From: Ornithinimicrobium sp. F0845 | GTDB lineage: Bacteria; Actinomycetota; Actinomycetes; Actinomycetales; Dermatophilaceae | Direction: 5' to 3' | Length of the DNA: 64,000 nucleotides | Assembly (NCBI RefSeq): GCF_023015765.1 | Contig: NZ_JALKAL010000017.1 | Span: 1-64,000 of the forward strand | Notes under the pieces: generated by a model | Told to the model about the DNA's origin: nothing | The model's database searches: none | Seen by the model: only the letters and a program-made list of their open reading frames with translations | Translations under genes and position numbers: made by a program | In this document: positions 1 to 25,418 of the stretch, one piece after another | Layout: the number at the start of each line of letters is the position of its first letter | How positions within the stretch are numbered: position 1 is the stretch's first letter

Positions 1-204
1 GCCCGAGGCAGTCCTCACCCGCCGTACGAACGTACCCACCGGCCAAGCCTACCCAGGGTTGTTAGTGACCACCCTGAGCCCCGAAGCTGCAGGTCAACGA
101 GTCACGACACGAAGAATCTTGACCGACCTAGCCAACTCAGGTCGGAGACTCTCGAGGGAGCCGGCGGCGTTGCGGTACCCAATGTTGTTGCGAGTCAGGA
201 GCAT

Positions 205-1029
205 TTGGCCGCTCTGGACGCCGCCCACGACAACGAGGTCGTGCCTGATCCACCGATTCCGCCTCAATTCGGTAAGCAGATAGATAGCGCCTTGAGGCAG
301 AAGTTGCACCAGCGACTGCTGCATGCTTCAGGTCAGCTGGGCAGCGTATACAGGGCAATGGTGGCCCATCCCGACGCAGGACCCACGCAGCTTCTTCCGC
401 ATACCGAGGCTGCCAACGTAGGCGCCGTAGCGAATCGGAAGGTGGTCGTTGAAGCCATCTTCGAAGGATACGAGCCGTCAGGACCTACCGTCGCGCTCCA
501 GGCGGCTCGCACGGTATCCGGGCTGCTAAAGGCGGAGGCGGAAGACGACGTCAAGAATCACCTAGCCGACGTGCTGACAAGGCTGCAGGCCAGAGCGGGT
601 AACGAGCAGGCCGTCGAGGCTGAGAGCGCCGAGCTGACGGCGCAGTCGGCGGAGTTGGCTACTGCGCTCGAGCAGGCATCCGGTGTTTACGTGTACACAT
701 ACCCGCATTACTATCGCCATCCCTACATCGCCGGCACCGAGCGACGGATGTTGAAGGTGGGGCGAACCACGAATAAGGCTTGGGGTCGTGTGATCAGCCA
801 GGCGCGCCAAACGGGGATGCCAGAGGATCCATTGTTGTTGCGGGTGTACACGACCGAGGACCCGGTGAGTGTCGAGAAGACCTACCACATGATGTTGGAC
901 GCGGCGGGCCATGACCGGAGCATTGGGGCCGCAGTCGGCAAGGAGTGGTTCGTGACAACCCTGGAATTCTGCGACGCCATCGCAAGTGTCTTGAATTTGG
1001 AGGCGCTCAAGGGCAGCGAGGAGCCTTGA
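205..1029 (+). CDS. GIY-YIG/T5orf172-type nuclease-like protein, 5' end uncertain
   Basis: The C-terminal third looks like the T5orf172/Mug113 branch of the GIY-YIG nuclease fold: a VYVYTY strand (about residues 161-166), then LKVGRTT (183-189) followed by an Arg seven residues later. Residues about 110-158 are Glu/Ala/Leu-rich and probably helical or coiled-coil. The frame has no stop between base 1 and the TTG at 205, and no ATG or GTG, so the gene may begin outside the window. AGGAG lies only three bases before the TTG, which is too close for a convincing ribosome site. GC content is visibly lower than in the housekeeping genes. It converges on the leftward helicase operon across a 228-bp gap in which I see nothing. 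Its role as a defence accessory is inferred from position only. Confidence 0.6.
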   Translation: MAALDAAHDNEVVPDPPIPPQFGKQIDSALRQKLHQRLLHASGQLGSVYRAMVAHPDAGPTQLLPHTEAANVGAVANRKVVVEAIFEGYEPSGPTVALQAARTVSGLLKAEAEDDVKNHLADVLTRLQARAGNEQAVEAESAELTAQSAELATALEQASGVYVYTYPHYYRHPYIAGTERRMLKVGRTTNKAWGRVISQARQTGMPEDPLLLRVYTTEDPVSVEKTYHMMLDAAGHDRSIGAAVGKEWFVTTLEFCDAIASVLNLEALKGSEEP

Positions 1030-1257
1030 GCGTTCGTCAGTGCTCAGTGCGGGTCGGCATCGTGCCCCGCAGAGATCGCCTCGGCCGTGGCCGGTAACCA
1101 GTAGTGCTGGATCGGGCAGAACATGCTGTCGTTCAGTTCGGACCGACTGATGAAGAATGATTCTGGAAGGTCGTGAGCGCGAATCAGGTGTCGTGTTCAC
1201 CTGCTCAAGAGGCAGGGGCGTCCGGAGCGCCACGGGTCGTGCCTAGCCATGGCCCAG

Positions 1258-4200
1258 TCAGGGGGCGAGATCGAGCGAGAGATCCGCGTGGGCACCGACG
1301 TAGGCCAGCATCTCCTCCTGCCGCGGTTGACCGAGGGTGAGTCGGTAGGCGCCTAGGGTCTTCAGGAGCCTGCGGTAGTGCTGCGTGCCGCGGCTCATGG
1401 GGAGGACCGGCACGAGGCGTTGGATCGTGGCGGCTCCCGCATACACCCAGTCGGGGAAGATCTCAGAATGGTCGCCTCGTTCCGCGGCAGCGAGCTCGAA
1501 CAGTGCGGGCCAGGGGCTGGAACCGCCGACGAGTGCGGGGTTCGCGCCATGCCGCTGCGCGACGTTCTTGCGCACCGCGTGGCCGCGATATCGATGCACG
1601 CGTCCCTCGCGCTGTTCGAGGTCAACCGGGTTGGAGGGAAGGTTCCAGTGCACGACGGCATGGGAGTAGTGGTGGAAGTCGAGTCCTTCTTGGCCCACAG
1701 AAGTGGATGCCAGCACGAAGGGCCAGAAGGGTGAGTTGAATGCCTCGCGCACGTGCGTCTCACGCTGCATGGTCTGGTCATCGACCGCCGCTGCGCGGCC
1801 ATAGCGGGCGGCGAAGTGGGTGCGGATCCAGCGCCTGTCCGGGACATCCGCACCATTGGTGAAGAAGTCCATCCTCTGGGGCGAGGCAAGCAGACCGCTG
1901 CCCTCGCGGAAGGTCTCTGCCAGCCTGCGCAACTGCTCGGCCCGATCCTCCCCGCCAAGAGAGTGAGCGGCGACAAGGACGGGGCCATATTCATCCAGCA
2001 CTGCCTGCAGATTGCCGTCCAGGGCATGGTCGAGCACCTGCCGCCAGTAGGCATCGCCCTCCTGTTCCTCCACCACCGCCATGATCTCGGCACCGTTGAA
2101 CAGGGAACGCAGGGACCAGGCCCATGCCGAAGCCGTCTCGCGCAGGTCGGGCGCAGCCAGGTCATCGGGGGAGTCGAGGATCCGGGCCAGCGCACGCAGC
2201 GAGCACACGCCTGGGCCGCCAACCGCAAGCCCAGCGAGGACCTCGGCGAGATCCGCGGGTCGGGGGCCGAGGTCTTCAGCCCGGATGCCGAGGGCCTCGT
2301 CCAGATGTCTCCTGAGCCCGCTGGTCCCGGCATCCGCATCACCAAGACGGCCGAACGCAAGCCCCTCGACGGTGGGCAGCCCGGCCAGCCGGTCCAGCAG
2401 GAGAGGGGCTGCCCAGTACCACTTCTGGTCGGCTGCTCCCTCCGACCTGCCCGCAGGAAGACCTCCCAACAGCCGCTCGATGCGCACGCGCACCTCCGCC
2501 AGCAGCCCATCACGGTCGAGCGGCAAGGACTTCCCCAGATCGGCCGCGACCCGCAGAGGATCGCCGACTCGTGCCAGCGTGACCGAGGGATTAAGCAGCG
2601 CCAGGACAGGCATCCCGGTGAGTCGCCCCTCGCTGACAGTGAGGTTCAACAGGCCACCGCGGCGGGTCGCGAAGTAGCCACGATCGCGCATCGTCGCCGA
2701 CCGCTCGGCGAGGAGGCGCTCGACCTCGTAGCTCAGGCTGGTTGCGATCCCCTTGGGTGCGACGCTCCAGGACGAGAACACCAGCCGCTTGGTGAAGGAC
2801 TGGAACGCAGGCTCGGCATAGACGCCGCGGGGAGAGTAGTAGGGCAGGGACGGCGCGAGCCAGGCCGCTTGCCAAGCGCCCGACCCCAGCACATCGTCGA
2901 CCAGCCACCGAGCGCGGGAGTTGCCGGACTCGATCTTCTCGAAGGTGTTGACGTCATCCGGTGTGAAGCGGGTCCGGAGGAGCCCGTCCAGAGTGCCGGT
3001 GCCCGCACTGAGTTCGTCCTCGATCCGCCGCTTGACGTGATAGCGCTCCATCAACTCAAAGACGTGAGGGGAGCTGCGCCAATACTCCAGTCCCTCGTGG
3101 GACCCGAGCGCCCGCGAGACCCTGGCCTGGGCGAGGTAGTCCTGGACGTCGACGGTGGCGATCGTGAGGACGTCCCGCCGAGTGGTCAGCATGCCGTCAC
3201 GATCTGGCGTTGCCGCCAGGCGCTCGGTCCTGGCCATCACTCGGCGCAGTTCGGCCTGTGCGACGTCCTTGGCGGCGACGGCGTCGGCGCGGTCGCCGCG
3301 GAGGAGTGCAGCACGCATCTCGCTCATGGCGTCCCGCACGACACGGGCTCGCGCCTTGCCGGCCAGCACCTCGACGGTGTGCAGGAAGTCTCGATAGTGG
3401 TCGTCGCCCTCCGGCTCGTCCGGCAGCGTGTACATCTTGAAGGGCGTGGCCGACAGGAGCAGCGTGCGTGCCGTTCGTGTCTCGCCGTCGCGTTCGACCT
3501 CAACCGGCCCGAGCAGCGACTGGACCAGGCGCGAGGCGTCGTCGTCACCCGTCAGCAGCTGACTGAAGCGCTGGAACTCGTCGAGGATCACCAGATCCGG
3601 GTGCAGATGCGAGATAGAGATCCGGGCAAGTGCCTGCCGCAGCTGGCTGATCAGCCGATAGCGCCGCGCGGACACTGCGTGCGTGACCGATCCACCCTCG
3701 CGCACCCAGCGGAACTCATCGACGCTCTCCAGCAGAGCCTCCTGCAGCGGCCGCCCGTCCGAGGCCGGCAGTCGCAGGGCCTCGGCGAAAGCGTCAACCA
3801 GCGGTTGTCCGACGGAGGCTCGGCGTGCCTCGTGAATCTCACGCCTGATCCGTGGCTCGCCAGCACCGCCCTGAAAGAACTTCATCCACTTCCGGCCGTT
3901 CAGCGCGGCGCCACCCCAGGCTCGTTCGAGCATGACCAACAGCAAGGCCCGCTCCCACACCGTGCCGCCACTGCTGCCGAGGTGGAAGGAGGTGCCCGGC
4001 GTGAACGAGATGATGTTGACCTTTTGCTGGTCCATCTCGTGCAGGACGGTGGGCAGCAAGGTTAGCCGGTCGGCATGCGGGATCTCGGTGTGCAGGCCGG
4101 CGTGCAGACGGCGCAGGTTCTGCCGGGCGATCTGACTGTTGGAGCAGATATAGACGATGTCGATCCGGTCGTCCCTGTCCCAGAGGTGCTCGACCGTCCG

Positions 4201-4377
4201 GGCCAGCACGCCCTTGGCCACGAGCGTCTTGCCGAGCCCGACCTCGTCGGCCACGAGGAACCGTGCCGAGGGCTCGTCCTCACCCCACAGCCTCTCGCAC
4301 GCGGCGTCGACGGTGCGCAGTTGGAAGTCCTTCAGGCCGGCAAGTGCGGCGCTGAGGTCGGGCCGGTTCTCGCTCAT
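1258..4377 (-). CDS. SNF2-like superfamily 2 helicase (third gene of DUF6361-PLD-helicase operon)
   Basis: This 1039-aa protein has an SF2 ATPase core split by a long insert. Walker A DEVGLGKT is at residues 44-51, motif II DEFQ at 266-269, motif III SATPFKMY at 309-316, and the C-terminal motif VI QREGRVHRYRG near 922-932. About 580 residues separate the two RecA-like halves, which is typical of large defence translocases rather than chromatin-type remodelers. Its ATG shares an ATGA overlap with the stop of the PLD gene, so translation is coupled. The gene set DUF6361 + PLD + Helicase_C matches what I recall of the Azaca defence system, where this would be the helicase ZacC; that should be checked by profile search. 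The ATPase core is certain and the system name is inferred. Confidence 0.85.
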   Translation of the reverse strand: MSENRPDLSAALAGLKDFQLRTVDAACERLWGEDEPSARFLVADEVGLGKTLVAKGVLARTVEHLWDRDDRIDIVYICSNSQIARQNLRRLHAGLHTEIPHADRLTLLPTVLHEMDQQKVNIISFTPGTSFHLGSSGGTVWERALLLVMLERAWGGAALNGRKWMKFFQGGAGEPRIRREIHEARRASVGQPLVDAFAEALRLPASDGRPLQEALLESVDEFRWVREGGSVTHAVSARRYRLISQLRQALARISISHLHPDLVILDEFQRFSQLLTGDDDASRLVQSLLGPVEVERDGETRTARTLLLSATPFKMYTLPDEPEGDDHYRDFLHTVEVLAGKARARVVRDAMSEMRAALLRGDRADAVAAKDVAQAELRRVMARTERLAATPDRDGMLTTRRDVLTIATVDVQDYLAQARVSRALGSHEGLEYWRSSPHVFELMERYHVKRRIEDELSAGTGTLDGLLRTRFTPDDVNTFEKIESGNSRARWLVDDVLGSGAWQAAWLAPSLPYYSPRGVYAEPAFQSFTKRLVFSSWSVAPKGIATSLSYEVERLLAERSATMRDRGYFATRRGGLLNLTVSEGRLTGMPVLALLNPSVTLARVGDPLRVAADLGKSLPLDRDGLLAEVRVRIERLLGGLPAGRSEGAADQKWYWAAPLLLDRLAGLPTVEGLAFGRLGDADAGTSGLRRHLDEALGIRAEDLGPRPADLAEVLAGLAVGGPGVCSLRALARILDSPDDLAAPDLRETASAWAWSLRSLFNGAEIMAVVEEQEGDAYWRQVLDHALDGNLQAVLDEYGPVLVAAHSLGGEDRAEQLRRLAETFREGSGLLASPQRMDFFTNGADVPDRRWIRTHFAARYGRAAAVDDQTMQRETHVREAFNSPFWPFVLASTSVGQEGLDFHHYSHAVVHWNLPSNPVDLEQREGRVHRYRGHAVRKNVAQRHGANPALVGGSSPWPALFELAAAERGDHSEIFPDWVYAGAATIQRLVPVLPMSRGTQHYRRLLKTLGAYRLTLGQPRQEEMLAYVGAHADLSLDLAP

Positions 4378-6251
4378 CGTCGCTCACCACCGGTGGCCTC
4401 CCAGACCGCCTGCCACAGTGCCAGGAACTCCGCCGACACCACACCGGGCTCGTCCTGGTTGATGCCCAGGTCGCGCAGCAACGCCTCCACCCGGTCCAGG
4501 GCCTCGCTGCCGTCCGCGGCCGCGCGCAGCAGGGGCTCGAGAATCGACAGGTCCTCGAACGTCACCGGCGGTCGGGTGTGTGTCGTGCCATCAGCCTCGG
4601 ACAGTCGCAGGTCGTCCCAGAGCGAGCCGACGTCAGCATCGTCGAGCAGGAACCGGAGATAGCGCACGATGCTCTCCTCCGACCCGAGATAACTGCGCAG
4701 GACCTCTGATGCCCGGTCCTCTGGCGCTCCCACCAGTTCCGCCTTGAGCACGCTCGCGATCTCCAGGTCGTCATCCCTCCCGTGGACAGGGACCTGAGTG
4801 ACCACTTCCAGGTATGCCGTGAGCTGGGTCAGGTGCACCCCGCGCCACAGTCCGTGCTCAGGTGATAGGCGGTCGGTCCGTGGCCGGCTGACGAGCCGAA
4901 CTCGGGTGGTTCCCGGGCTGGTGGGGAGGGGGCGCGCGAAGGTGAGGGACACGGCATACCTGTTGTCGTCGTCCTCGCAGGTGAGTTGTGGACCGGCCTT
5001 AAGCAGCGCTTCATGATGGAGTGCCGCGTCCCTCTCAGCCTTCAGCTTCGGATCCTCGACCGCTTCGGGGTTGGGCACCTCGTGATCCTGGATGATGTGG
5101 CCGAAGGTGATCCGGTCTCGGGACGGCTCACCGTCGGGGAGGAGCGCCTCGACGCCGCAGACGCGGCGCGGTCCGGTGAGCAGCACCCCGAACTCGACAT
5201 TGCCGTTGAACGCGGCATGGGTGGCGTTGGCGGAACCCGTGTAGGTGTGCCCCGTGGAGCCGACATCCCAGACCAGGACCTTCGCGTGCAGTCCGGTGCG
5301 CACCTCCTCGGGCTGCGATCGCGGCGAGGAGGTGTCGGTGGCCAGCTCCGCCTCAGCATGGGGGTTCAGGACCTTGACGTCGGTGTGCCGGACCGCGTTG
5401 GCCCCGATGAGGTCATAGGTCTCCTCCCGGGACACGAGCACCGGGGACCGACGTGCCTTGATCCGGGTGGCCGTCGGGACGTCCAGGAACGGGGAGATCA
5501 CGACAGCCCGGTCCGGGCGCTCGGGCAAGGGCCAGGCCGAGGCGCCGTCGCGAATGAGTCCGAGCGGGTGGAGCTCGCCGCCGGTGAAGGGCTTGGGCAG
5601 CTCGAACCAGACATTCCTCAGCGAGTCGGCGAGGTCCATCGCCTGCGCGGGTCGGTCGGGGGCGATGTGCCCCACGGCCATGCCGGGAAGGGTCCGCACA
5701 AAGTCCGCCGCGGGGGAGCCGGCGATCCCAGCGCCGTGCGAGCCCTCATCGAGGATGAGCAGCGTGTCCCAGGACGAGTCGTCCGTCAGATTGCGGCTGC
5801 AGACCACCAGGCGATGGACCAGCTCGTCATCACGACGGAAGCGCAGCGCCCACACCTTGGGGTGGAAGATGTGGCCGGGCACCGGCGGCAGGACCTGCAC
5901 GACGCAGTCTTCGGCGAAGGTCAGCAGCCGTGGGTAGGAGCCGGGGGAGCCGATGGCTCCGGCGTGGCAGTAGACGGTGGTGCGGTCGGCATACCTGCGG
6001 ACCGACTCCAAGAGTGCCAGCGTGTCGACGGGCGCGTGCCCCTCATCTGGATCGTCCTCGAGGAGTTGGACCTCGCGGTCATGGGCGGCCATCGCCAACG
6101 GTGGCAGGAAGAGCATCCGCAGGCCGAGGGTGTAGGTCGTGCCGATGGCCAGGTCGACGTGGTGCCCTGTCGGTGGGCGAAAGGCATCGACGAACAGGGC
6201 GCGCGTGGACGGCTCAAGCATCGACCAGCTCCAGTCCTCGGTGGATGTCAT
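4374..6251 (-). CDS. Phospholipase-D-fold protein with two HxK motifs
   Basis: This protein of up to 625 aa carries two PLD-like half-sites. The first is HPK at residues 130-132 followed by CSRN at 151-154, and the second is HAK at 322-324 followed by GSAN at 339-342. PLD-fold proteins in defence systems usually act as metal-independent nucleases using the paired histidines. It is much longer than the DrmC PLD of DISARM. The start at 6251 overlaps the upstream DUF6361 gene by 38 bp. An ATG at 6221 makes the common eight-base ATGCTTGA overlap with that gene's stop and may be the real start, losing ten residues. It lies between DUF6361 and the helicase in a coupled operon, in the place where I would expect the ZacB-like component of an Azaca-type system. 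Confidence 0.82.
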   Translation of the reverse strand: MTSTEDWSWSMLEPSTRALFVDAFRPPTGHHVDLAIGTTYTLGLRMLFLPPLAMAAHDREVQLLEDDPDEGHAPVDTLALLESVRRYADRTTVYCHAGAIGSPGSYPRLLTFAEDCVVQVLPPVPGHIFHPKVWALRFRRDDELVHRLVVCSRNLTDDSSWDTLLILDEGSHGAGIAGSPAADFVRTLPGMAVGHIAPDRPAQAMDLADSLRNVWFELPKPFTGGELHPLGLIRDGASAWPLPERPDRAVVISPFLDVPTATRIKARRSPVLVSREETYDLIGANAVRHTDVKVLNPHAEAELATDTSSPRSQPEEVRTGLHAKVLVWDVGSTGHTYTGSANATHAAFNGNVEFGVLLTGPRRVCGVEALLPDGEPSRDRITFGHIIQDHEVPNPEAVEDPKLKAERDAALHHEALLKAGPQLTCEDDDNRYAVSLTFARPLPTSPGTTRVRLVSRPRTDRLSPEHGLWRGVHLTQLTAYLEVVTQVPVHGRDDDLEIASVLKAELVGAPEDRASEVLRSYLGSEESIVRYLRFLLDDADVGSLWDDLRLSEADGTTHTRPPVTFEDLSILEPLLRAAADGSEALDRVEALLRDLGINQDEPGVVSAEFLALWQAVWEATGGERR

Positions 6252-7413
6252 CGACGAGCTGCTTGGCCTCGGGCCAGCGATAGAGCATCCGCCCCATGCC
6301 GCTGCCGCCCTCCCACGCCTCGAGTGCGTCGCTGTTCACGAAGCGGGAGCGTCGGCCCTTCAGGCTCAGCTCGCGGTCACGAATGAGCTTCTCAGCCATG
6401 GGGTCGCGGGTCAGATCACGTCCGTCGCGCACCAGCGCGACCCAGGCGTCCACGTAGGTGTGGGTCGCGGGGTTGTGGCGCCACCGGGCCTGGGCCAAAC
6501 ACCGCCAGAAGTCGTCGCGGTCCCAGGCCGCTGCTGCCTGCTGTGTCTCCTCGTGTGCCGCCCAGGCCTGGAACCGGTCGGTGTATGTCTCCACGCCTTC
6601 TGCCCAGCCCTTGTCACGGGCGAGCAGCAGGTTGTAGAGGATGGGCGCACCTTCGTGCAGCAGGCTAAACCTGCGTGCGTGCTCGAGGCTCCTCGCCGGG
6701 CCGGTGGGCAGGTCAGCCAGCAGGCTTTGGTCCCAGGGCATGTCGGTGTCGCCGCGGACACCGTGCTGGATCAACCAGCCGAGATAGCGGTCGCTGCACG
6801 TGTCGAGGATCCGGTCTCGCAGGAACTCAGCCTCGTCGCGGGTGAGGGCAAAGTCAGTTGTTCGCAACCAGTCATCAGGCTGGGTCGGCAGCTGGCGGAA
6901 GCAGGGGTCGACATGCCGGACGTGCTGGGGGTCGTCGTCCTCGTCCACCGACGCGGGTGGCCGCTCCGTCGCGTAGCGCAGGTGCTGCTCGATGGTGTGC
7001 CCACATCGCTTGATGCCGTAGATGGCCAGCGCTCCCCAGTATGCGACGCTCGCCATTCGCCCGAGGCTGGCGCGGGCGTCGCGACCGATCACGCCTCCGT
7101 CAATGTCGCCGGCACGGAGAGACTCGATGAGCCGGATCTCCTGTTGTCTGAGCTCGTGCACCGCGCGATCGGAAGGGAGGCGACGGGAGGAAACAGTGGT
7201 CACCGACCAGGGCACGAACAGCAGATAGCGCGCGCGGGTGTGCAGGGTGGACGTCCCGGGAAAGAGCAGCTCGCTGAACGTGTTCCGGACGGTGCCGACA
7301 CCCATCTCGTCGACCGTTCCCTTGTCCCGGAAGGCGTCCAGCAACCGATCCATGTCCTCACGGTGGGCCGAGGAGTAGTCGACCCAGGCGAACGATGAGG
7401 ACATGGGCGCCAC
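6214..7413 (-). CDS. DUF6361 family protein (first gene of the leftward defence operon)
   Basis: The N-terminus (FAWVDYSSAHRE, then GVGTVRNTFSELLFPG, then RARYLLFVPW) is what I recognise as DUF6361, a family of unknown biochemistry found in defence islands. I see no catalytic motif, signal peptide or membrane segment in the 399 residues. It is the promoter-proximal gene of a three-gene operon: its stop overlaps the start region of the PLD gene, which in turn overlaps the helicase. It is divergent from the DrmD-like helicase across 302 bp, so both operons may share control. It would be the ZacA-like component if the operon is an Azaca system. Family assignment is fairly sure; function is unknown. 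Confidence 0.72.
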   Translation of the reverse strand: MAPMSSSFAWVDYSSAHREDMDRLLDAFRDKGTVDEMGVGTVRNTFSELLFPGTSTLHTRARYLLFVPWSVTTVSSRRLPSDRAVHELRQQEIRLIESLRAGDIDGGVIGRDARASLGRMASVAYWGALAIYGIKRCGHTIEQHLRYATERPPASVDEDDDPQHVRHVDPCFRQLPTQPDDWLRTTDFALTRDEAEFLRDRILDTCSDRYLGWLIQHGVRGDTDMPWDQSLLADLPTGPARSLEHARRFSLLHEGAPILYNLLLARDKGWAEGVETYTDRFQAWAAHEETQQAAAAWDRDDFWRCLAQARWRHNPATHTYVDAWVALVRDGRDLTRDPMAEKLIRDRELSLKGRRSRFVNSDALEAWEGGSGMGRMLYRWPEAKQLVDDIHRGLELVDA

Positions 7414-7715
7414 TCTGCCTCACCCGGGTCAGGGTCGCTCGCCATGTCGTCAGCTCGGCGACCGACACTCCCCGTTTGGCGCGAGTCACCGATCTATAAC
7501 AGAACGGGCCCTTCTCTTGCTTGAACCTTGAAGTGCAGGCAACCTTGCTGGGGGTCGTCCGACCGCGAGTTTCGGTCCCTGGTTATGGTCATGTTTCGTC
7601 GATGAGGGAGTGACGTGGTGCTGCTTAACCCCATGGCCATCTGGGGCATAGTCTGCGGTCACCCGAGTCCGCCTGAAACTGTCTCGACCAACGCATCGTC
7701 CAGGAGCAGTGCCCC
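7414..7715. promoter_or_regulatory. Divergent promoter region between the two defence operons
   Basis: This 302-bp gap between DUF6361 (leftward) and the SNF2 helicase (rightward) holds no convincing gene. It must contain both operon promoters. Leftward, a TATAGA box lies at 7492-7497 on the minus strand, but with no good -35 at normal spacing. Rightward I found no convincing promoter. The segment around 7490-7590 is visibly more A+T-rich than the flanks. AGGAG at 7702-7706 is the ribosome site for the GTG at 7716. I could not identify a clear operator palindrome. Confidence 0.4.
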
Positions 7716-10580: not shown

Positions 10581-10581
10581 C

Positions 10582-18200: not shown

Positions 18201-21200
18201 ACCAGCCGGAGCGACAACTTCTATCGGCGCCTGTATGACTCGGCCGACATGCGCCGGGTGATCGCACACGAGCACACCAGTCTGCTGCACGACACGGTCC
18301 GCCGGGAGGTCGAGGAGGGCTTCAAGGCATCCGAGCCCTCACCGGATGCGCCGAACGTGCTGGTCGCCACGCCGACCCTGGAGATGGGCATCGACATCGG
18401 TGACCTGTCCACGGTCATGCTGTCCTCACTGCCCGACTCGGTCAGCAAGTATGTGCAGCGCGTCGGCCGTGCTGGACGGCTCACCGGCAATGCCCTCAAC
18501 CTGGCCTTCGTGACCGGTCGCGGCGACCAACTCCCGAGGCTGGGGAACCCGCTGTCCGTCATCAATGGCGAGGTGCGTCCGCCAGCAACCTATCTCGATG
18601 CTGAGGAGATCCTGCGTCGGCAGTATCTCGCCTCAATCATCGACTCCCTGGCCCGCAGCGGCGAGATCACGCTGCCGACGAAGGCGGGTGACGCGTTGCG
18701 CTCGTCGGCACCGGGGTCGTTCCTCGGCACGGTCCTTGAGGTTGCGGCGGCGAATGCGGACGAGTACCTCAGCAACTTCCTGGGCGCCTTCGACGGGCTC
18801 GACCCCGCCGTCGTCGACGGGTTGCAGCGATGGGCCGTCCCCGATCCGGACTGGGACGTGGAGGAGTCGCTCGGGGCTCTCGTGCACCGTGCCAGCACGC
18901 AGTGGCAGCGCGGGGAGGAGTCGCTGGAGCGTCGTGGTCGGGAGATCGAGGATGCGCTGCCGTCGCTGCAGGCCGCGGCGGAGAGCCCGGCTGCCTCCGA
19001 CGATGACCGGCGAGCGTGGCGCTCGGCCGAGGCGGCCTACAAGCTGACGAAGCGGGAACTGGCCGACCTGCGCACCCAGCACTGGGTGTCAGCACTGGAG
19101 GAGCGGGGCATCCTGCCCAACTACACGCTGCTCGATGACATGGTGACGCTCGAGGCACGGGTCACCTGGGTCGACCCCGAGACCGGTGCCTATGAGTCCG
19201 AGGCCGAGACCGTGCAGAGGGCTTCATCGCAGGCGCTCCGGGAGCTTGCTCCGGGCGCGACCTTCTATGCCCGCGGCCTCGCGATGCGCATCGACGGCCT
19301 GGACATGGGGCAGGACGCCAGCAACGTCCGCAGCTGGGTGTGGTGTGCGGAGTGCGGCTATGCCCTCGACGTCCAGCAGAGTGCGGGCCCGGCCTTCTGC
19401 CCACGCTGTGAGAGCAGCCAGCTCAAGGACACGGGCCAGCGGTTCGACGTCGTGCGGCTGGAGCACGTCTATTCCGAGGTGCGGCGCGACCGCGACCTCA
19501 TCGATGACCGGGACGAGCAGCGGCAGCGGACCGGCTTCTCGATCGCAACGGCAGCAGATCTGGACCCGGCCCAGATGGCCGACCAGTGGCACGTCGCTGA
19601 CGGTGACTTCGGTGTCAGCCACTACCGCACGGTCAACATCCGCTGGTTGAACCTTGGGCCGCGCTCGCGATCGGGTGTGACGAACGTCGAGATCGCCGGG
19701 CAGTCGGTGGCTGCAGCGCTCTTCCGGGTGTGTGCCGGCTGCGGCAAGCTCGACAGCACCGCGAACCTGAACCAGCGAGACGAGCACCGGCCGTGGTGCC
19801 GTTATCGCGACAGCAAGGACGAGGACACCCGGTCGGTGGCGCTGAGCCGGGAGTTGCGCACCCAAGGAGTGGTCATCACCCTGCCGATCAGCGTGACCCT
19901 GGGGGACCGGTATGCCGTGCCGAGCCTGGCCGCGTCCGTCCTGTTGGGCCTGCGGCAGGAGATCGGTGGGGCACCAGATCACCTGCAGGTCGAGACCGTG
20001 CCGGTGCCGGTCACCGGCGGTGGGGGCGATCGGGTGCGGGAGGCGTTGCTGCTGCACGACCTGGTGCCGGGAGGGACCGGCTATCTCGCCGACCTCGCGT
20101 CGGCAGAGCGAGTGTGGAGGATGCTCGTCAAGGCCTATGAGGTCATCGCACAGTGCGACTGCCGGGATGAGGGACGCCAGGCCTGCCACCGGTGCATCCT
20201 GCCGTTCTCGCGCGGTGGAAGTGTCGAGCTGCTCTCGAACGTGTCGGCCGAACGGCACCTGCGGACACTGCTCCGTCTGGCCGAGGGGGAGACCTGGGAG
20301 GATCTCGACACCGAGCAGATGCGCTGGACGATCGAGAAAGGGCAGGCCGCCTCGGTGACCGGTGAGTCCGCGCTCGAGTTGCGCTTCCGGGCCGTCTTCA
20401 CCGAGCGGCTGGCCGCTGCCGGTGCGACGGTCAAGGAGATCCCCGGTCCAAACGGCAACCAGCTGCAGGTCACCGGGCTGGGGCAGGGACGGGTCTGGCG
20501 GCTGGTGCCGCAGGAGAACATGCATGGAGCCAAGCCCGACTTTGTGCTGCGCACCGACGACCCGAACGTGCCAGAGGTGGCCATCTTCACCGACGGGTGG
20601 CAGTTCCACGCACACTGGCAACACAACCGGATCGCCGACGACGCCCAGAAGCGGGCCAATCTGCGGGATGCCGGCAAGGCCGTGCTGTCCGTCACCTATG
20701 ACGACCTGGTGCAGCAGCCGGGTGGGTCAGGACCTGCGTGGCTGCAGCCTGCGGCAGTCGAGCGACTCTTTGCGTCGATGGGTGACAGCGCGGGAGGCAT
20801 CACGCAGGGAGTGGTCGACGACCTCCGGGACGGGCCGCTGTCAGTGCTCCTCGGCAGGATGCAACGCGTGATCGACAAAGAGCCCCGGCGCGCGCTGAGC
20901 CGCAACCTGGGCTGGTTGTTCCTGGTCAACTCGACCTCCCTCGGCGTGCCCGCCGACCGTCCGCTGACCGAGGTCGCCGCCGCGGTGCTTGATGGCGAGC
21001 CACTGGAGGGGAACACCCCAGGAGCTTTGTGGCGACACGACCACCTCGTGGTCGTCAGCAGGCTGACCGGTCCGCGAGGGATCGAGACGGTCGTGATGCT
21101 GGAGGACCGCCCTGAGATGTTGGAGCAACCCACACACAAGGCGGCTTGGCAGGAGTGGCTGCGCATCAGCAACGCCGTGACTCCCGAGGGCTTCGTGAAC

Positions 21201-21548
21201 GTCACCGCGCGATCGCTCGCACTGGAACCTGAGGAGTCGGTGACGTCCTCGCCGCTGGAGCAGCACCTGGAGACCTTGACTGACGCATGGACGGCCCTCT
21301 TCGATCTGGAACTCACCGAAAGGGAGCAGAGACTCGTGGCTCAGCTCGCCGCGAAAGGTGTGCCGGTGCCCGAGATCGGCGTGGAGGTCGACGGTGTGCC
21401 GATCGACGTCGCCTGGCCCGAGCGCAAGGTGGCCGTGCTGCTCGAAGCTGACGACGAGTTCGCCACCGAATTGCGCGACGGTGGATGGACCGTCGTCGAC
21501 CCTGACGCAGACCTCATTGCTGCTGCTCTCAGCACGGAAGGACGCTGA
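15204..21548 (+). CDS. Giant DEAD/DUF1998 helicase with C-terminal nuclease-like domains (DruE/MrfA-like)
   Basis: This 2114-aa protein has helicase motifs GTGSGKT (residues 109-115), DEFH (238-241), SATL (291-294) and QRVGRAGR (1085-1092). The insert of about 790 residues between the RecA halves carries Cys pairs at 506/509, 616/619 and 966/969. A further CxxC lies at 1381/1384. A four-Cys cluster at 1651, 1653, 1661 and 1664 matches the DUF1998/MrfA zinc-binding domain. After it comes a Vsr/DUF559-like PD-(D/E)XK signature: KPDF at 1777-1780, TDGW ending at 1799, His1802, and Asp1812-Asp1813 before an Arg/Lys helix. The last 70 residues resemble a second, degenerate copy. Size and layout recall Druantia DruE more than separate DrmA plus DrmB. 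The ATG at 15204 overlaps the upstream TGA; a TTG one codon earlier is possible but less likely. Confidence 0.85.
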   Translation: MAELLPTLQARELANGLVDYLTTTFALADAEPRRALQEFLEDPDDGIFKGPYLRLRLPFRPADEGWQRSLEWRPEWTPYRHQAQAYARLSTLGRAGLGARPEPTLITTGTGSGKTEAFLHPVIDHVLRAKREGVTGTKAIILYPMNALADDQARRLTTTLTQDAALSSITAAVYTGNQTGTRTTVSEAGLITDRAVIRDSAPDILLTNYKMLDQLLLRADDQPLWQQSALSLQYLVLDEFHTYDGAQGTDVAMLLRRLGLALKHHWPENHPEITDEDRARPLGRITPVATSATLGDDGDPSVMLSFARTVFGEEFDSNAVVTESLLTWEEWRGHAALPPGVAPRRLDDLTEPELAEFVAHIDALADDPEALTTELLGRLHDGDIRGVDALSLIKTHPDVQAIVDRASRAAAYPDLLGVLFPRGTTDEAVERLRLRALEGLVAVLSHIRADEGRRALGVELNFWVRELTRIDRVASAVPAYHWSDDGSWAGTEDADTLGATFPAIYCRHCGRSGWGIQLAAVGNDLAAEDSDIRHNHLINEGRFRPLLHAPIEDEKALTHEGAEGHIEGLRWLSVSGRRLLDRRPDEDDGDLKAGRILPVLTRTGQDADERAHKDDCPSCQQADGIRFLGTAIATKLSVSLSILFGNAVLDSAEKKSLVFTDSVQDAAHRAGFVQSRSHAMTLRATLKDAIGTVPTTLDTLVEDVMARAGDDRFHRYRLVPPDCLLLEPFDRFWKADRLQDVSGRDRSWVKRRLLFDASLEVGLQSGFGRTLESTGSIVASVDAGPSSTLLSIARTVLTQDEVELLGIAQNDDRLLVAWVRGLLERMRRNGGINHEWLGKYLQEDGRRYRIWGGRPKTGMPAFPAGRAAPAFPRVGALLARQSESGLDTVRSPQGWYAHWAVKCLGVNAQHGAKLAERLLAALAAADLLAVTETQSQGKVYGIPSGSVRLQATEASDLEDGRTLLVCDTCQDQQPAAPEVAEQLDGAPCLVARCRGTLQRTSRSDNFYRRLYDSADMRRVIAHEHTSLLHDTVRREVEEGFKASEPSPDAPNVLVATPTLEMGIDIGDLSTVMLSSLPDSVSKYVQRVGRAGRLTGNALNLAFVTGRGDQLPRLGNPLSVINGEVRPPATYLDAEEILRRQYLASIIDSLARSGEITLPTKAGDALRSSAPGSFLGTVLEVAAANADEYLSNFLGAFDGLDPAVVDGLQRWAVPDPDWDVEESLGALVHRASTQWQRGEESLERRGREIEDALPSLQAAAESPAASDDDRRAWRSAEAAYKLTKRELADLRTQHWVSALEERGILPNYTLLDDMVTLEARVTWVDPETGAYESEAETVQRASSQALRELAPGATFYARGLAMRIDGLDMGQDASNVRSWVWCAECGYALDVQQSAGPAFCPRCESSQLKDTGQRFDVVRLEHVYSEVRRDRDLIDDRDEQRQRTGFSIATAADLDPAQMADQWHVADGDFGVSHYRTVNIRWLNLGPRSRSGVTNVEIAGQSVAAALFRVCAGCGKLDSTANLNQRDEHRPWCRYRDSKDEDTRSVALSRELRTQGVVITLPISVTLGDRYAVPSLAASVLLGLRQEIGGAPDHLQVETVPVPVTGGGGDRVREALLLHDLVPGGTGYLADLASAERVWRMLVKAYEVIAQCDCRDEGRQACHRCILPFSRGGSVELLSNVSAERHLRTLLRLAEGETWEDLDTEQMRWTIEKGQAASVTGESALELRFRAVFTERLAAAGATVKEIPGPNGNQLQVTGLGQGRVWRLVPQENMHGAKPDFVLRTDDPNVPEVAIFTDGWQFHAHWQHNRIADDAQKRANLRDAGKAVLSVTYDDLVQQPGGSGPAWLQPAAVERLFASMGDSAGGITQGVVDDLRDGPLSVLLGRMQRVIDKEPRRALSRNLGWLFLVNSTSLGVPADRPLTEVAAAVLDGEPLEGNTPGALWRHDHLVVVSRLTGPRGIETVVMLEDRPEMLEQPTHKAAWQEWLRISNAVTPEGFVNVTARSLALEPEESVTSSPLEQHLETLTDAWTALFDLELTEREQRLVAQLAAKGVPVPEIGVEVDGVPIDVAWPERKVAVLLEADDEFATELRDGGWTVVDPDADLIAAALSTEGR

Positions 21549-23776
21549 TGCCGACCATCGTCATGGCCAAGCAGGAGCGGGCCGTCGAGCCGATCCTGAA
21601 GAAGAAGGCTTTCGCGTTCCTCGAGAAGCTCTCCAGCGACGACACGCTCCCGGGCCTCCACATCGAGCCCATCGTCAACTCCGCAGACCCGCGCGTGCGG
21701 ACCGGGCGGGTGGATGACGGATACCGGGCCGTGCTGTTCAAGATCGCCGACAAGGACGCGGTCACCTACGTCTTCCACGGGATCTGGCCACACGACGACG
21801 CCATCCGGGAGGCTGAGCGCACCACGCTGCGGGTCAACCCGATCTCGGGCATCGCTGAGATCCGACGCGTTGAAGTGCCAGCCGCCGAAACTGCTGCAGC
21901 GACCGGTGCGGCTCCCGAGCCCAGCGTCACGTCACCCACACCCAGCCCGATGGCCGAGGTGCCGGCGAAGGACTCCCTGCTGACGGCATACGGACTCGAC
22001 GTTGCGGACCTGACCGGCATCGGGCTGGACGAGGACTTCGCTCAGCGGGCGATGTCGGTGGCCGACGAGGAAGCTGTGCTGGCTCTGGCTGGTGAGGCAC
22101 CGGCGGACTGGCAGGGGTTGGCGCTGATCGACCTCAGCACCGGCATGTCGGTGGAAGAGGTCACCGAGCGACTCAGCCTCGGGCAGGCGGTGGACACCAC
22201 CGGCAGTGAGGAGGAGCAGCTCATCCGCGGGCTGCAGCACCCGGCCGGTCAACTCTCCTTCGCCTGGATCGAGGACAACGAGGAGCTGCGCCGCGTCATC
22301 GAGGACACCGACTTCGCCGCGTGGCGGATCTTCCTGCACCCGCTGCAGAAGCAGTACGTCGTTCGCGACTACCGCGGGCCCGCGAAGGTGACTGGCGGTG
22401 CGGGGACGGGCAAGACCGTTGTGGCCCTGCACCGTGCGCGTCGGCTGGCCCTGCAGGCCGGTGCGCCGCGAGTGCTGCTGACGACCTTCACCCGCAACCT
22501 GGCGGATGCTCTGCAGCGGGACATGCGAGTCCTCGACCCGGACGTGGAGATCACGAGTGGACTGGGGGAGCGAGGGCTGCGGATTGCTGGCATTGACCAG
22601 GTGGCGCACGCGGTGCTGAAGGATGCCGGGCAGGATGTCGGCCGTGCCGCCGAGGAGGTGCTCGGTGTTGCCACCGTGGACGTCACGCGACGCACTGGAC
22701 CGGAGGCGTGGAGCGAGGCCATCAGCGCGGTCGGGGCTGACGTGCCCGAGAACCTGCGCAGTCCTGCCTTCTTCGCGGCGGAATACACGATGGTCGTGCT
22801 GCCACGTCGGATCACGTCGGCGGAGAAGTATTTCCGTGCTCCTCGCCGGGGTCGGGGGGTGGCACTGAACCGTGGGCAGCGGGCGGCTGTGTGGGCGGTG
22901 ATCGAGCGTTATCGAGCGTCGGCCAGGGCTCACGGGACACTCGACTTCGCGGAGGTGGCCACCCTTGCTGCTGCGCACCTGGAGCTCTCGGGTCGGCACC
23001 TGTTCGATCACGTGCTGGTCGATGAGGGGCAGGACCTCACGCCGGCGCACTGGCAGCTGCTGCGTGCGCTGGTGCCGCCGGGGCGAAACGATCTGTTCAT
23101 CGCCGAGGACTCACACCAGCGCATCTATGGGCAGAAGGTGACTCTGTCGCACTTCGGGATCGAGACGCGGGGGCGCTCCCGGCGGCTGACGTTGAACTAT
23201 CGGACCACCCAACAGAACCTGCGGTGGGCGATGGGCATCCTTGATGGCGCGGACTATCGCGACCTTGAGGATGAGGCTGAGGAGCACGATGAGTATCGCT
23301 CCGCGCGGTCCGGGCCGGTGCCGCAGGTGCTGCCGTGCGAGTCGTTGTCCGCTGAGTTGGACCAGGCTGCGGCGCTGGTGGGCTCGTGGCTGTCGGAAGA
23401 GGAGCCGCCTGCGCCGGAGACTGTGGCGATCCTGGTGCGGGACCGGTTCCAGCGCGACCGTGTCGTGGCCGGACTGGCCGAACGTGGTGTTGAGGTCCGG
23501 GCCGTCGATGCGGAGTCCGTGAAGTCTGGTGCACCGGTGGTGATGACGATGCACCGGGCGAAGGGGACGGAGTTCGCTCGAGTGCTGCTCTTTGGTGTGC
23601 GGGAAGGCTGGATCCCCTCGTCGATGAAGGAGTACAACACCAGCGAGGCGGATTGGGACGACGCAATGCTGCGTGAACGTTCGCTGCTCTATGTCGCTGC
23701 CACGAGGGCGCGCGATGTGCTAGCTGTCTCGTGGTCTGGACAGCAGTCCACACTGCTCCGGGGGGCAGAATCGTGA
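21548..23776 (+). CDS. UvrD-like SF1 helicase with N-terminal RelE/ParE-like domain
   Basis: The C-terminal two thirds of this 742-aa protein form a superfamily 1A helicase: Walker A GGAGTGKT at residues 283-290, motif II DEGQD at 492-496, a LNYRTTQQN motif IV-like segment, MTMHRAKGTEF, and YVAATRAR at 715-722. Residues 1-107 resemble a RelE/ParE-type toxin fold (FLEKL, then GLHIEPI, then DPRVRTGRV, then YRAVLF, then a HGIWPHDDA segment). Such toxins cut ribosome-bound mRNA or block gyrase; whether this copy is active or only a binding module cannot be told from sequence. The start shares one base with the upstream stop. It may unwind or degrade DNA captured by the larger helicases, which is inference. 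Confidence 0.82.
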   Translation: MPTIVMAKQERAVEPILKKKAFAFLEKLSSDDTLPGLHIEPIVNSADPRVRTGRVDDGYRAVLFKIADKDAVTYVFHGIWPHDDAIREAERTTLRVNPISGIAEIRRVEVPAAETAAATGAAPEPSVTSPTPSPMAEVPAKDSLLTAYGLDVADLTGIGLDEDFAQRAMSVADEEAVLALAGEAPADWQGLALIDLSTGMSVEEVTERLSLGQAVDTTGSEEEQLIRGLQHPAGQLSFAWIEDNEELRRVIEDTDFAAWRIFLHPLQKQYVVRDYRGPAKVTGGAGTGKTVVALHRARRLALQAGAPRVLLTTFTRNLADALQRDMRVLDPDVEITSGLGERGLRIAGIDQVAHAVLKDAGQDVGRAAEEVLGVATVDVTRRTGPEAWSEAISAVGADVPENLRSPAFFAAEYTMVVLPRRITSAEKYFRAPRRGRGVALNRGQRAAVWAVIERYRASARAHGTLDFAEVATLAAAHLELSGRHLFDHVLVDEGQDLTPAHWQLLRALVPPGRNDLFIAEDSHQRIYGQKVTLSHFGIETRGRSRRLTLNYRTTQQNLRWAMGILDGADYRDLEDEAEEHDEYRSARSGPVPQVLPCESLSAELDQAAALVGSWLSEEEPPAPETVAILVRDRFQRDRVVAGLAERGVEVRAVDAESVKSGAPVVMTMHRAKGTEFARVLLFGVREGWIPSSMKEYNTSEADWDDAMLRERSLLYVAATRARDVLAVSWSGQQSTLLRGAES

Positions 23777-23807
23777 TCTGCGGCGCGGCGACCAGGGAAG
23801 CCCCCAG

Positions 23808-25418
23808 GTGTCTGCCCTAAAGCGGCCGGAGCGCCCAACTGCGGGTCGGCGCACTGTCGAGGCCATGGCTGCCTATGCGATTGAGTCTGGAGCTGCCTCC
23901 GACGTGGATGACCTGTTGGACCAGGTCGCTGCCGTACGCGGCCGGAGACTCTTCAACGCCTTGTTGGCCATCTTGCAGATGCCACACGCGACCATGCTGT
24001 GCGACGCTGCGGAGTGGCGTCGCAAGTGGCGGCGAGCTGTGAGGCCGGGCGAACGTCCCGTCGTTTTGCTCTTTCCCTTCGGGCCAGTCGAGTTCGTCTT
24101 CGACGTGTCGCAGACTGAAGCCACGGACCACCAAGTCGTCCTTCCGTTCGACGCTGCGCCCTTCGAGATGAGACCTTTCCCGCCCGCTGCCGAACTGCTC
24201 GCTCGGCTCATCTCAGCAGTTGCGCCCATCGGAGTGAGGGTGCTCACGGCACGCCACGGAGTGCCTCTGGCCGGCAAGATCCAGCGGATTGGTGACACAA
24301 GTGGGACACCCATCCTGCAGTTCGGAGACGCTGAGTCCCGTGAGGCTGCAGCAGAGCGTTGGGTGGTCACACTGAATCAGTCGCATGCCCCGACGGAGCA
24401 GTTGGCCACCTTGGCTCACGAACTGGGACACCTGTTCTGCGGGCATGTTGGCGCCGACAGAGGAGACAAATGGCCGAACCGTCCTGTCGCAGATCGCGCA
24501 GTCCGCGAATTTGAGGCAGAGTCAGTGGCTCGTCTCCTCTTCCGCAAGGTTGCGCCAGGGTGGGAACTGCCAGACTACCTGGATCGCACGGTCGAACTCG
24601 ATCACTTGTCGCCCGAGAATGGTTTGACCTATGTGGCTCAGGCGGCAGAGACGGTTCTGGACCTGCTTGATCTCCAAGACCGCCCAATACGGGGGTCAAT
24701 GGAGGTGAAGGCCGCACCCGTTGAGGTTCCTGCCTGGGCCACCTCGCTGGAGGTTCGACAAGGTGCTGAGAACTCGACAGAGGTCATACTCGTGCGCTCA
24801 ACGCCAGATCACCACGGACTGCCTGAGCGGGTGGCGACTGCCTGGGCAGCTGGCACCTCCACGCTTGCCGACCCATGGATCGCCACGGCGCGAACGGTGG
24901 AGGCATTCGACGGGGTTCTGTCGTACTTTGCGCGTCCGCCCGGAGCGGACGCGGACCATGATCGATCTGCCAGTCGTGTGCTGCAGCTGCTTCCCCTGGA
25001 CAGTCACCGACTGACCGTCGTGTCTGCAGGCGAGGCCGACCAGGGGGCAGTCATCGAGGTGAGCACCGATGAGTCGAACCATGGCAGCGACCTGGTGGCC
25101 ATATGCCGGTCGCACATACAGGGCGGTGGCCTCGAGTGCATTGAGCCCGACCTAGACCTGTCGTGGCTCAATACGAGAGTCGAATATGCCACCGGTGAGC
25201 ACGGATGGGAGCAGGTGCTTGGTTGGGAGGAGGTCTTTGGCACGGATGACTGGCGCTTCCGCAGTAGTTCTGAACGGCTCTTTCTGAACGTGCGACCCGA
25301 TGCCGGCCTCGTCGAGCCACAGGTGATCGAAATCCTGGCACGAGCTGTGTCTACGGCGCGGATAGACTTTGCCGACTACGAGGCCAGTCAGGGCGACGAC
25401 TCGTACTCCGACCAGTAG
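23808..25418 (+). CDS. ImmA/IrrE-like zinc metallopeptidase with long C-terminal domain
   Basis: The 536-aa protein carries HELGH at residues 204-208, and a downstream EFEAESVA stretch (Glu236/Glu238) supplies the likely third zinc ligand. This is the ImmA/IrrE arrangement, whose founding members cleave XRE-type repressors or respond to DNA damage. The roughly 290-residue C-terminal region has no motif I recognise. The GTG start is supported by AGGGAAG at 23794-23800. It follows the UvrD-like gene by 31 bp as the last gene of the operon and is noticeably less GC-rich than the genes before it. It could be the signalling or release step of the defence system; the XRE gene at 27.1 kb is a possible but unproven substrate. 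Confidence 0.75.
   Translation: MSALKRPERPTAGRRTVEAMAAYAIESGAASDVDDLLDQVAAVRGRRLFNALLAILQMPHATMLCDAAEWRRKWRRAVRPGERPVVLLFPFGPVEFVFDVSQTEATDHQVVLPFDAAPFEMRPFPPAAELLARLISAVAPIGVRVLTARHGVPLAGKIQRIGDTSGTPILQFGDAESREAAAERWVVTLNQSHAPTEQLATLAHELGHLFCGHVGADRGDKWPNRPVADRAVREFEAESVARLLFRKVAPGWELPDYLDRTVELDHLSPENGLTYVAQAAETVLDLLDLQDRPIRGSMEVKAAPVEVPAWATSLEVRQGAENSTEVILVRSTPDHHGLPERVATAWAAGTSTLADPWIATARTVEAFDGVLSYFARPPGADADHDRSASRVLQLLPLDSHRLTVVSAGEADQGAVIEVSTDESNHGSDLVAICRSHIQGGGLECIEPDLDLSWLNTRVEYATGEHGWEQVLGWEEVFGTDDWRFRSSSERLFLNVRPDAGLVEPQVIEILARAVSTARIDFADYEASQGDDSYSDQ

Follow-up and report, generated by a model that had tools for sequence, protein, structure and literature searches.

Back-to-back Azaca and ARMADA Type II operons in Ornithinimicrobium sp. 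F0845, with a gene for an ArdC-like protein behind ARMADA

The window analyzed here, a stretch of 64,000 nucleotides from Ornithinimicrobium sp. F0845 (contig NZ_JALKAL010000017.1, positions 1 to 64,000), holds a defense locus in which two divergent operons comprise eight large genes, with a convergent GIY-YIG gene as their neighbor (Table 1). The genes were delineated from six-frame open reading frames (ORFs) and a simple gene caller; each of the eight is a long open frame, three on the minus strand and five on the plus strand. The left operon is, by its profile matches, Azaca (zacABC), and the first four genes of the right operon are identified from their sequences as ARMADA Type II (armABCD), already described and not a new DISARM relative. 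Behind armD stands a fifth gene, for an ArdC-like M78 protein. We hold with a probability of roughly 0.85 that these are two separate, known antiphage operons lying back to back, and that ARMADA is followed by an optional ArdC-fold fifth gene that likely serves as built-in restriction alleviation. A preliminary description of this DNA had proposed one composite defense locus of nine genes in two coupled operons. The defensive character of the locus and the 302-bp divergent spacer were borne out, but the two operons comprise eight genes, the GIY-YIG gene belonging to neither. Neighbors within both operons overlap by at most 38 bp or are separated by at most 31 bp. A scan of the 302-bp spacer for sigma-70-type promoters and terminators gave no match.

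Table 1. Positions of the genes and sites at the locus, in window coordinates
Feature	Position	Strand	Evidence or remark
GIY-YIG (T5orf172) gene, 5' end off contig	1..1029	+	Pfam; converges with zacC
zacC, helicase (P0002)	1258..4377	-	PADLOC ZacC 1069 bits, residues 7-1039
zacB, PLD-like (P0003)	4374..6251	-	PADLOC ZacB 506 bits, residues 11-624; PLDc_2 weak, 23 vs cutoff 27 bits
zacA (DUF6361), first gene of operon (P0004)	6214..7413	-	PADLOC ZacA 400 bits, residues 4-395, profile 1-395/396; Pfam DUF6361 E 2.5e-52
Spacer between the divergent zacA and armA starts	7414..7715		302 bp, ORF coordinates
armA, BrxHII/RapA-like SNF2 helicase (P0005)	7716..10580	+	35.6% identity to E. coli ArmA, residues 10-820
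armB, PglX-like methyltransferase	10582..15204	+	34.3% identity to E. coli ArmB, residues 156-1478
armC, YprA-family helicase-nuclease (P0007)	15201..21548	+	28.9% identity to E. coli ArmC, residues 5-1841, 596 bits
Predicted active Vsr-type nuclease core of ArmC	20532..20609	+	residues 1778-1803
armD, GajB-like UvrD helicase	21548..23776	+	31.7% identity to E. coli ArmD, residues 18-737
Gene for ArdC-like M78 protein (P0009)	23808..25418	+	ArdC-fold region, residues ~3-288, plus ~240-residue C-terminal extension
HELGH zinc-binding motif	24417..24431	+	residues 204-208 of the ArdC-like protein

The zacA-zacB-zacC genes lie on a single strand in overlapping frames, and each matched its PADLOC profile over nearly its full length, which confirms the resemblance to Azaca suggested earlier; no difference from Azaca was found in the operon itself, and only one further genome showed a divergent ARMADA neighbor. 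The enzyme inventory of the preliminary description likewise stood in most parts. Pfam supported the four helicase/ATPases, the methyltransferase, the M78 peptidase, and the GIY-YIG (T5orf172) protein; the PLD assignment fell below the Pfam cutoff, yet that protein is ZacB by profile.

ARMADA Type II was presented in a September 2025 preprint as a four-gene system linking DISARM and Druantia, with a strict order of BrxHII/RapA-like helicase, PglX-like methyltransferase, YprA-like helicase, and GajB-like helicase (PMC12458937). The order armA-armB-armC-armD in the window is the same, and it is this gene order, together with armD, that assigns the operon to Type II and not Type I. Compared with the E. 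coli systems (NCTC 12900, ATCC 8739; PMC12458937), the proteins are only 29 to 36% identical, but their lengths agree within ~6% and the alignments cover 85 to 97% of each protein. All eight positions at which E. coli mutants were made (ArmA K136/D236, ArmB G605/N971, ArmC K110/D234, ArmD K266/D454) are identical here, among them ArmA K141 and D240 (E. coli K136 and D236), ArmB G558 of the GxG motif and N928 of the NPPW motif, and ArmD K289 and D492. In E. coli, six of those eight mutations abolish defense, whereas G605A and D454N weaken it; all four genes are required, and the defense is nonabortive, with cells surviving (PMC12458937). ArmC, with a probable alternative start codon (ATG) at 15204, has an MZB zinc domain at residues 1579 to 1666 (Pfam), and its C terminus is modeled as a Vsr-type nuclease predicted to be active, a feature shared with E. 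coli ARMADA II. A Foldseek search with the 449-residue ArmC tail gave no match at an E value of ≤1e-3, and a second look returned Vsr-like nucleases. An armC tree of 15 chosen rows, drawn from the armC matches without covering them all, adds little to the branch placement because DruE is represented by one long-branched row and helicases of ARMADA Type I and DISARM are absent. Neither alignment A3 nor the tree includes locus L016, the armC of which is split into several fragments.

The preliminary description had likened the start of the right operon to class 1 DISARM and had suggested an undescribed DISARM-related system. The operon is indeed related to DISARM, sharing a DrmD-like helicase and a PglX/DrmMI-like methyltransferase with class 1, but those two labels are weak. 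The NCBIfam DrmD score is 335 bits, below the cutoff of 610, and ArmB scores 180 bits with the best DrmMI model versus 1508 bits, over its full length, with PADLOC model PDLC03611, filed as Type IIG. A 2023 profile library that has no ARMADA models files this methyltransferase as Type IIG restriction. NCBIfam gave no match to DrmB or DrmE in the right operon, and its DrmA model scored 21 bits with P0007 against a cutoff of 999; among the PADLOC matches listed, DrmA models matched P0005 (225 bits) and P0007 (55 bits), both partially, and DrmB did not appear. The helicase and DUF1998-type parts are fused here in one protein, whereas DISARM has drmA and a separate drmB. With genes missing and scores below cutoff, membership in DISARM class 1 was rejected. 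The giant helicase is DruE-like, and drmB and drmE are absent by NCBIfam, as had been proposed; with Druantia, ArmC shares the YprA-family architecture and the MZB zinc domain. However, its best PADLOC DruE score is 274 bits, in three stretches, and it scores 121 bits with E. coli DruE III versus 596 with ArmC, which places it on the ARMADA side. No other dru gene (druH and others) was among the PADLOC matches listed, and Druantia was also rejected. The right operon is, on these comparisons, the published ARMADA Type II.

What is unusual is the fifth gene, whose product is shaped like a plasmid restriction-dodging protein and is encoded within the defense operon itself, 31 bp behind armD. Full profile matches of every protein to a canonical system, with no new component, would have counted against the proposal of an undescribed system; this is mostly what was seen, with the ArdC-like protein left over. 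PADLOC gave that protein a partial match to RT_III-A (31 bits). In structural models, the protein adopts the two-domain fold of R388 ArdC (PDB 6sna, 6i89) over 223 residues, with a predicted ArdC-N single-stranded DNA (ssDNA)-binding domain joined to a zincin fold whose gluzincin-type site and glutamate-helix residues appear intact. The HExxH zinc site is shared with R388 ArdC, and H204, E205, L206, and H208 are invariant in all nine family members (alignment A1). Unlike R388 ArdC, the protein has some 240 additional C-terminal residues. This extension, modeled mostly under a predicted local distance difference test (pLDDT) score of 50, had no relative among 1036 neighborhood proteins. Searching PDB sequences with the M78 profile gave no match up to an E value of 1. 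In EPEC, the RptR-RMS-DarTG-M48 island likewise has a zinc metallopeptidase gene behind its Type I restriction genes, but that peptidase is M48 rather than M78 and the island has no ARMADA (PMC12255303).

Some relatives of the ArdC-like protein are encoded in ARMADA II or Type I restriction operons. At an E value of ≤1e-3, 11 of 186 genomes of the host's family carry one, its own included. Among six others at <1e-20, four (G178, G045, G125, G117) have the gene immediately after hsdR, itself preceded by hsdM and hsdS, with one further gene separating hsdS from hsdR in G178; the remaining two (G123, G043) are not behind hsdR, and that of G043 sits at a contig end. Pfam confirmed HsdR in all four hsd-linked genomes, HsdM in three, and HsdS in two, the remainder being assigned by gene order. 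A phylum sample contained 2 of 396 genomes with a relative at ≤1e-8, and a profile search of the host's order 25 of 396 at ≤1e-10, both including the host. Fifteen order-level neighborhoods were compared, three of them with Type I genes nearby (L207 HsdS, L208 HsdR, L220 N6 methylase); eight weaker M78 matches of the 25 (5e-22 to 2e-19) were outside the fetched set, and L170 (G660; M78 gene missed by the gene caller) and L174 (G018; 25% identity) were left unused. In genome G286 (L208), a GIY-YIG/DUF4041 gene directly adjoins the ArdC-like gene inside the Type I cluster. Of 72,556 plasmid records, 3 matched P0009, all inside ARMADA II operons. On a Microvirga plasmid the relative lies behind armD with one small gene between, and on two Haematobacter plasmids of one strain it lies between armB and armC, overlapping armB by 4 bp. 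The Martelella plasmid pMM259 carries the same ArmD accession as Haematobacter pOT1-7 without an ArdC-like gene between armB and armC, and this identity points to a recent gain or loss in the pair. Across the 15-row tree, the trait requires at least three changes and could reflect one gain and two losses; separate gains appear likelier, because the position in the operon differs between loci. Among 19 viral loci, two similar contigs have hsdM and hsdS matches and one has an SNF2 helicase match; the other 16 gave no match to the Arm and Hsd reference set.

ARMADA itself recurs in the host's order. Of 396 genomes sampled there, 38 (the host's own included) have an ArmC relative at ≤1e-100, and 38 neighborhoods were fetched from the 37 others. 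In these, armA was found in 33, armB in 36, and armD in 37; all four genes stand together in 33, and the other five are incomplete or are truncated, either by the contig or by the limits of the stretch fetched. In G458 the contig ends behind armC. The earlier expectation that the five right-hand genes would recur elsewhere thus holds for four of them and rarely for the fifth. One locus (L125/L126, G475) has the order armC-armD-armA-armB; by product names, a Cylindrospermopsis plasmid (L161) has the same. At 32 of the 38 loci, armB and armC could both be labeled within the stretch fetched, and 13 of these have an armB-armC gap of >300 bp. The arm order is therefore mostly kept and the armB-armC junction takes guests. 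Ten proteins scanned from seven of these loci had FRG, PIN, HTH, Schlafen AlbA_2, MTES_1575 helicase, GmrSD, AAA_15/OLD-type ATPase, or YhcG domains, and most of the guests scanned resemble restriction factors or toxins (GmrSD, OLD-type, Schlafen, FRG, PIN, YhcG). The accessible text of the ARMADA preprint makes no mention of this slot (PMC12458937). The slot behind armD varies as well, with a KAP NTPase, DarT, NO VEIN-like, DNA ligase-like (LigA-like), and unknown proteins; in G230 (L173) it holds a 2308-amino-acid (aa) PDC-S37-like protein, and in L069 (G447) a second, 981-aa ArmD-like gene follows armD. The E. coli IncY plasmid RCS32TR557_p (L156) carries ARMADA II with a DruE-matching stretch ahead and a transposon-borne beta-lactamase gene near. 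DNA matching this ARMADA II was found in 527 of 5426 E. coli genomes and was plasmid borne in 23 of 536 places.

At the left edge, base 1 of the window is the contig end, which truncates the GIY-YIG gene; lying opposite to Azaca and converging with zacC, it is placed outside both operons. To the right, nine genes were scanned from 25.6 to 36.6 kb, encoding F420-dependent reductase-like, esterase-like, and MarR-like proteins, a PfkB kinase, a nucleoside hydrolase, an MFS transporter, an indigoidine-synthase-A-like protein, a LysR regulator, and an ABC transporter. The defense genes therefore appear to stop at 25.4 kb.

The partners of ARMADA II in E. coli are Druantia III and Zorya II, whereas here the partner is Azaca. 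In the order sample, ZacB occurs in 26 of 396 genomes, ArmC in 38, and both in four, the host included, against 2.5 expected (p 0.23). In the three other co-carriers (G230, G282, G401), armC and zacB are 12 to 24 kb apart on one contig, a closeness expected of defense islands. Nine named ARMADA genomes were also inspected, and one, an uncultured Serinicoccus, has Azaca, again divergent, with the zacA start 3.1 kb from armA. The one gene between (687 aa; L176:8393-10456) is apparently the first of the ARMADA operon, is of unknown family, and has no PADLOC match; behind armD is a 550-aa gene with no similarity to P0009, no HExxH motif, and no Pfam or PADLOC match. The back-to-back layout therefore occurs in two hosts, the ARMADA operons of which are closely related. 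Azaca plus ARMADA as one linked unit was rejected genome-wide, as co-occurrence is at the chance level, and neither system shows a sign of needing the other. These counts do not support the earlier view of both operons as one composite, since the two systems are apart in most genomes. An undescribed DISARM-related composite in which all nine genes cooperate would gain from the DrmD-like, DrmMI-like, and partial DrmA-model matches and from the repeated divergent arrangement in Serinicoccus. We nevertheless regard it as highly improbable, given the subcutoff DrmD score, the lack of DrmB and DrmE in NCBIfam, the match to published ARMADA II, the chance-level pairing, and a Serinicoccus locus that differs both between and behind the operons.

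ARMADA would be expected to act in a restriction-like manner. ArmB may mark self DNA by methylation or help to recognize it, ArmA, ArmC, and ArmD may translocate on and unwind invading DNA, and the C-terminal Vsr-type nuclease of ArmC may cut that DNA without killing the cell. In the ArdC-like protein, whose fold and conserved zinc residues were found as described above, the ArdC-N half would bind ssDNA and the other half would act as a zinc protease. Most likely it would restrain or resolve restriction complexes on the cell's own DNA, serving as built-in alleviation. DruE, a related helicase, is reported in a 2026 preprint to assemble on exposed ssDNA and to cut there (PMC13192584). An ArdC-fold partner that binds ssDNA would suit a machine of this kind, whether it serves as a brake that limits self-damage or as a protease that is triggered. 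Type I restriction alleviation works by ClpXP proteolysis (PMC4231737, PMC11109961, PMC12255303); because of this, and because the activity reported for R388 ArdC opposes restriction, the brake is favored. Several observations weigh against this reading. The ArdC-like gene was in none of the 38 ARMADA neighborhoods of the host's order, several of them cut by contig ends; no M78 gene at ≤0.001 was inside the ARMADA operon in the 38 genomes, the nearest being 16, 24, and 26 kb away; 12 of the 15 order-level neighborhoods had no Type I genes by blastp against the reference set; and two further plasmids reached through other family members (Cupriavidus, Mycolicibacterium), 2 of 5 carriers, are not ARMADA linked. 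R388 ArdC was not found from the sequence profile (hhalign, 2%), Pfam ArdcN matched none of the nine family members, and the C-terminal extension is not present in the other eight A1 members. The protease activity of R388 ArdC is dispensable for antirestriction (PMC7213743). Although a RelE-like domain fused to the ArmD N terminus is an ARMADA II trait (PMC12458937), and the N terminus of ArmD in the window aligns with that of E. coli ArmD, Pfam gave no match there.

The same distribution raises the question of whether the fifth gene is a chance neighbor, the slot behind armD being a general landing place unrelated to ARMADA. The gene behind armD changes from locus to locus, the ArdC-like gene is absent from all 38 sampled loci, and in G258, the one other order-level ARMADA genome among the 25, the copy lies 24 kb from armC, like a loose island neighbor. 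We consider this unlikely all the same, given that three plasmids from a different phylum carry relatives inside their ARMADA II operons, two of these at the armB-armC junction with the 4-bp armB overlap, and that in four genomes a relative immediately follows hsdR. Rather less probable is an infection-activated effector, in which helicase-made ssDNA would switch on the protease against a phage or host protein, as in DNA-activated Spartan and IrrE. The predicted ArdC-N fold with its intact HELGH and glutamate-helix residues, and the reported action of DruE on exposed ssDNA, would suit such an effector. However, among the eight genes Pfam showed no XRE-type repressor, the kind of protein on which ImmA/IrrE peptidases usually act, and E. 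coli ARMADA II protects without an ArdC-like protein (PMC12458937). The gene might instead be the antirestriction gene of a mobile element that landed by the defense operon and is kept for the sake of the element. Proteins with ArdC-N and a metallopeptidase are typical of conjugative elements (PMC5512222), and three carriers are plasmids; this origin is nonetheless improbable, in that the gene has the orientation and spacing of a defense-operon member at several sites and no transfer gene was among the nine scanned to the right.

We favor, then, built-in alleviation behind an otherwise known ARMADA operon. More broadly, helicase-nuclease restriction systems (ARMADA II and Type I) might repeatedly recruit an ArdC-fold ssDNA-binding metalloprotease as their own subunit, either as an alleviation device for entering and living in an unmodified cell or as an ssDNA-activated protease, an idea that we advance tentatively and with somewhat more doubt than belief. 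The terms peptidase, protease, M78, and IrrE do not occur in the main text of the ARMADA preprint (PMC12458937), and among the matches listed no title or abstract start described an ARMADA or Type I operon with such an ArdC-like gene, a negative that falls short of proving absence. A natural pair of near-identical operons, with the ArdC-like gene on Haematobacter pOT1-7 and without it on Martelella pMM259, offers an unusually clean comparison. If some lineages do add a dedicated ArdC-fold protein, it would provide a testable entry to how large restriction machines spare their own cell when they are newly acquired or when its DNA is damaged.

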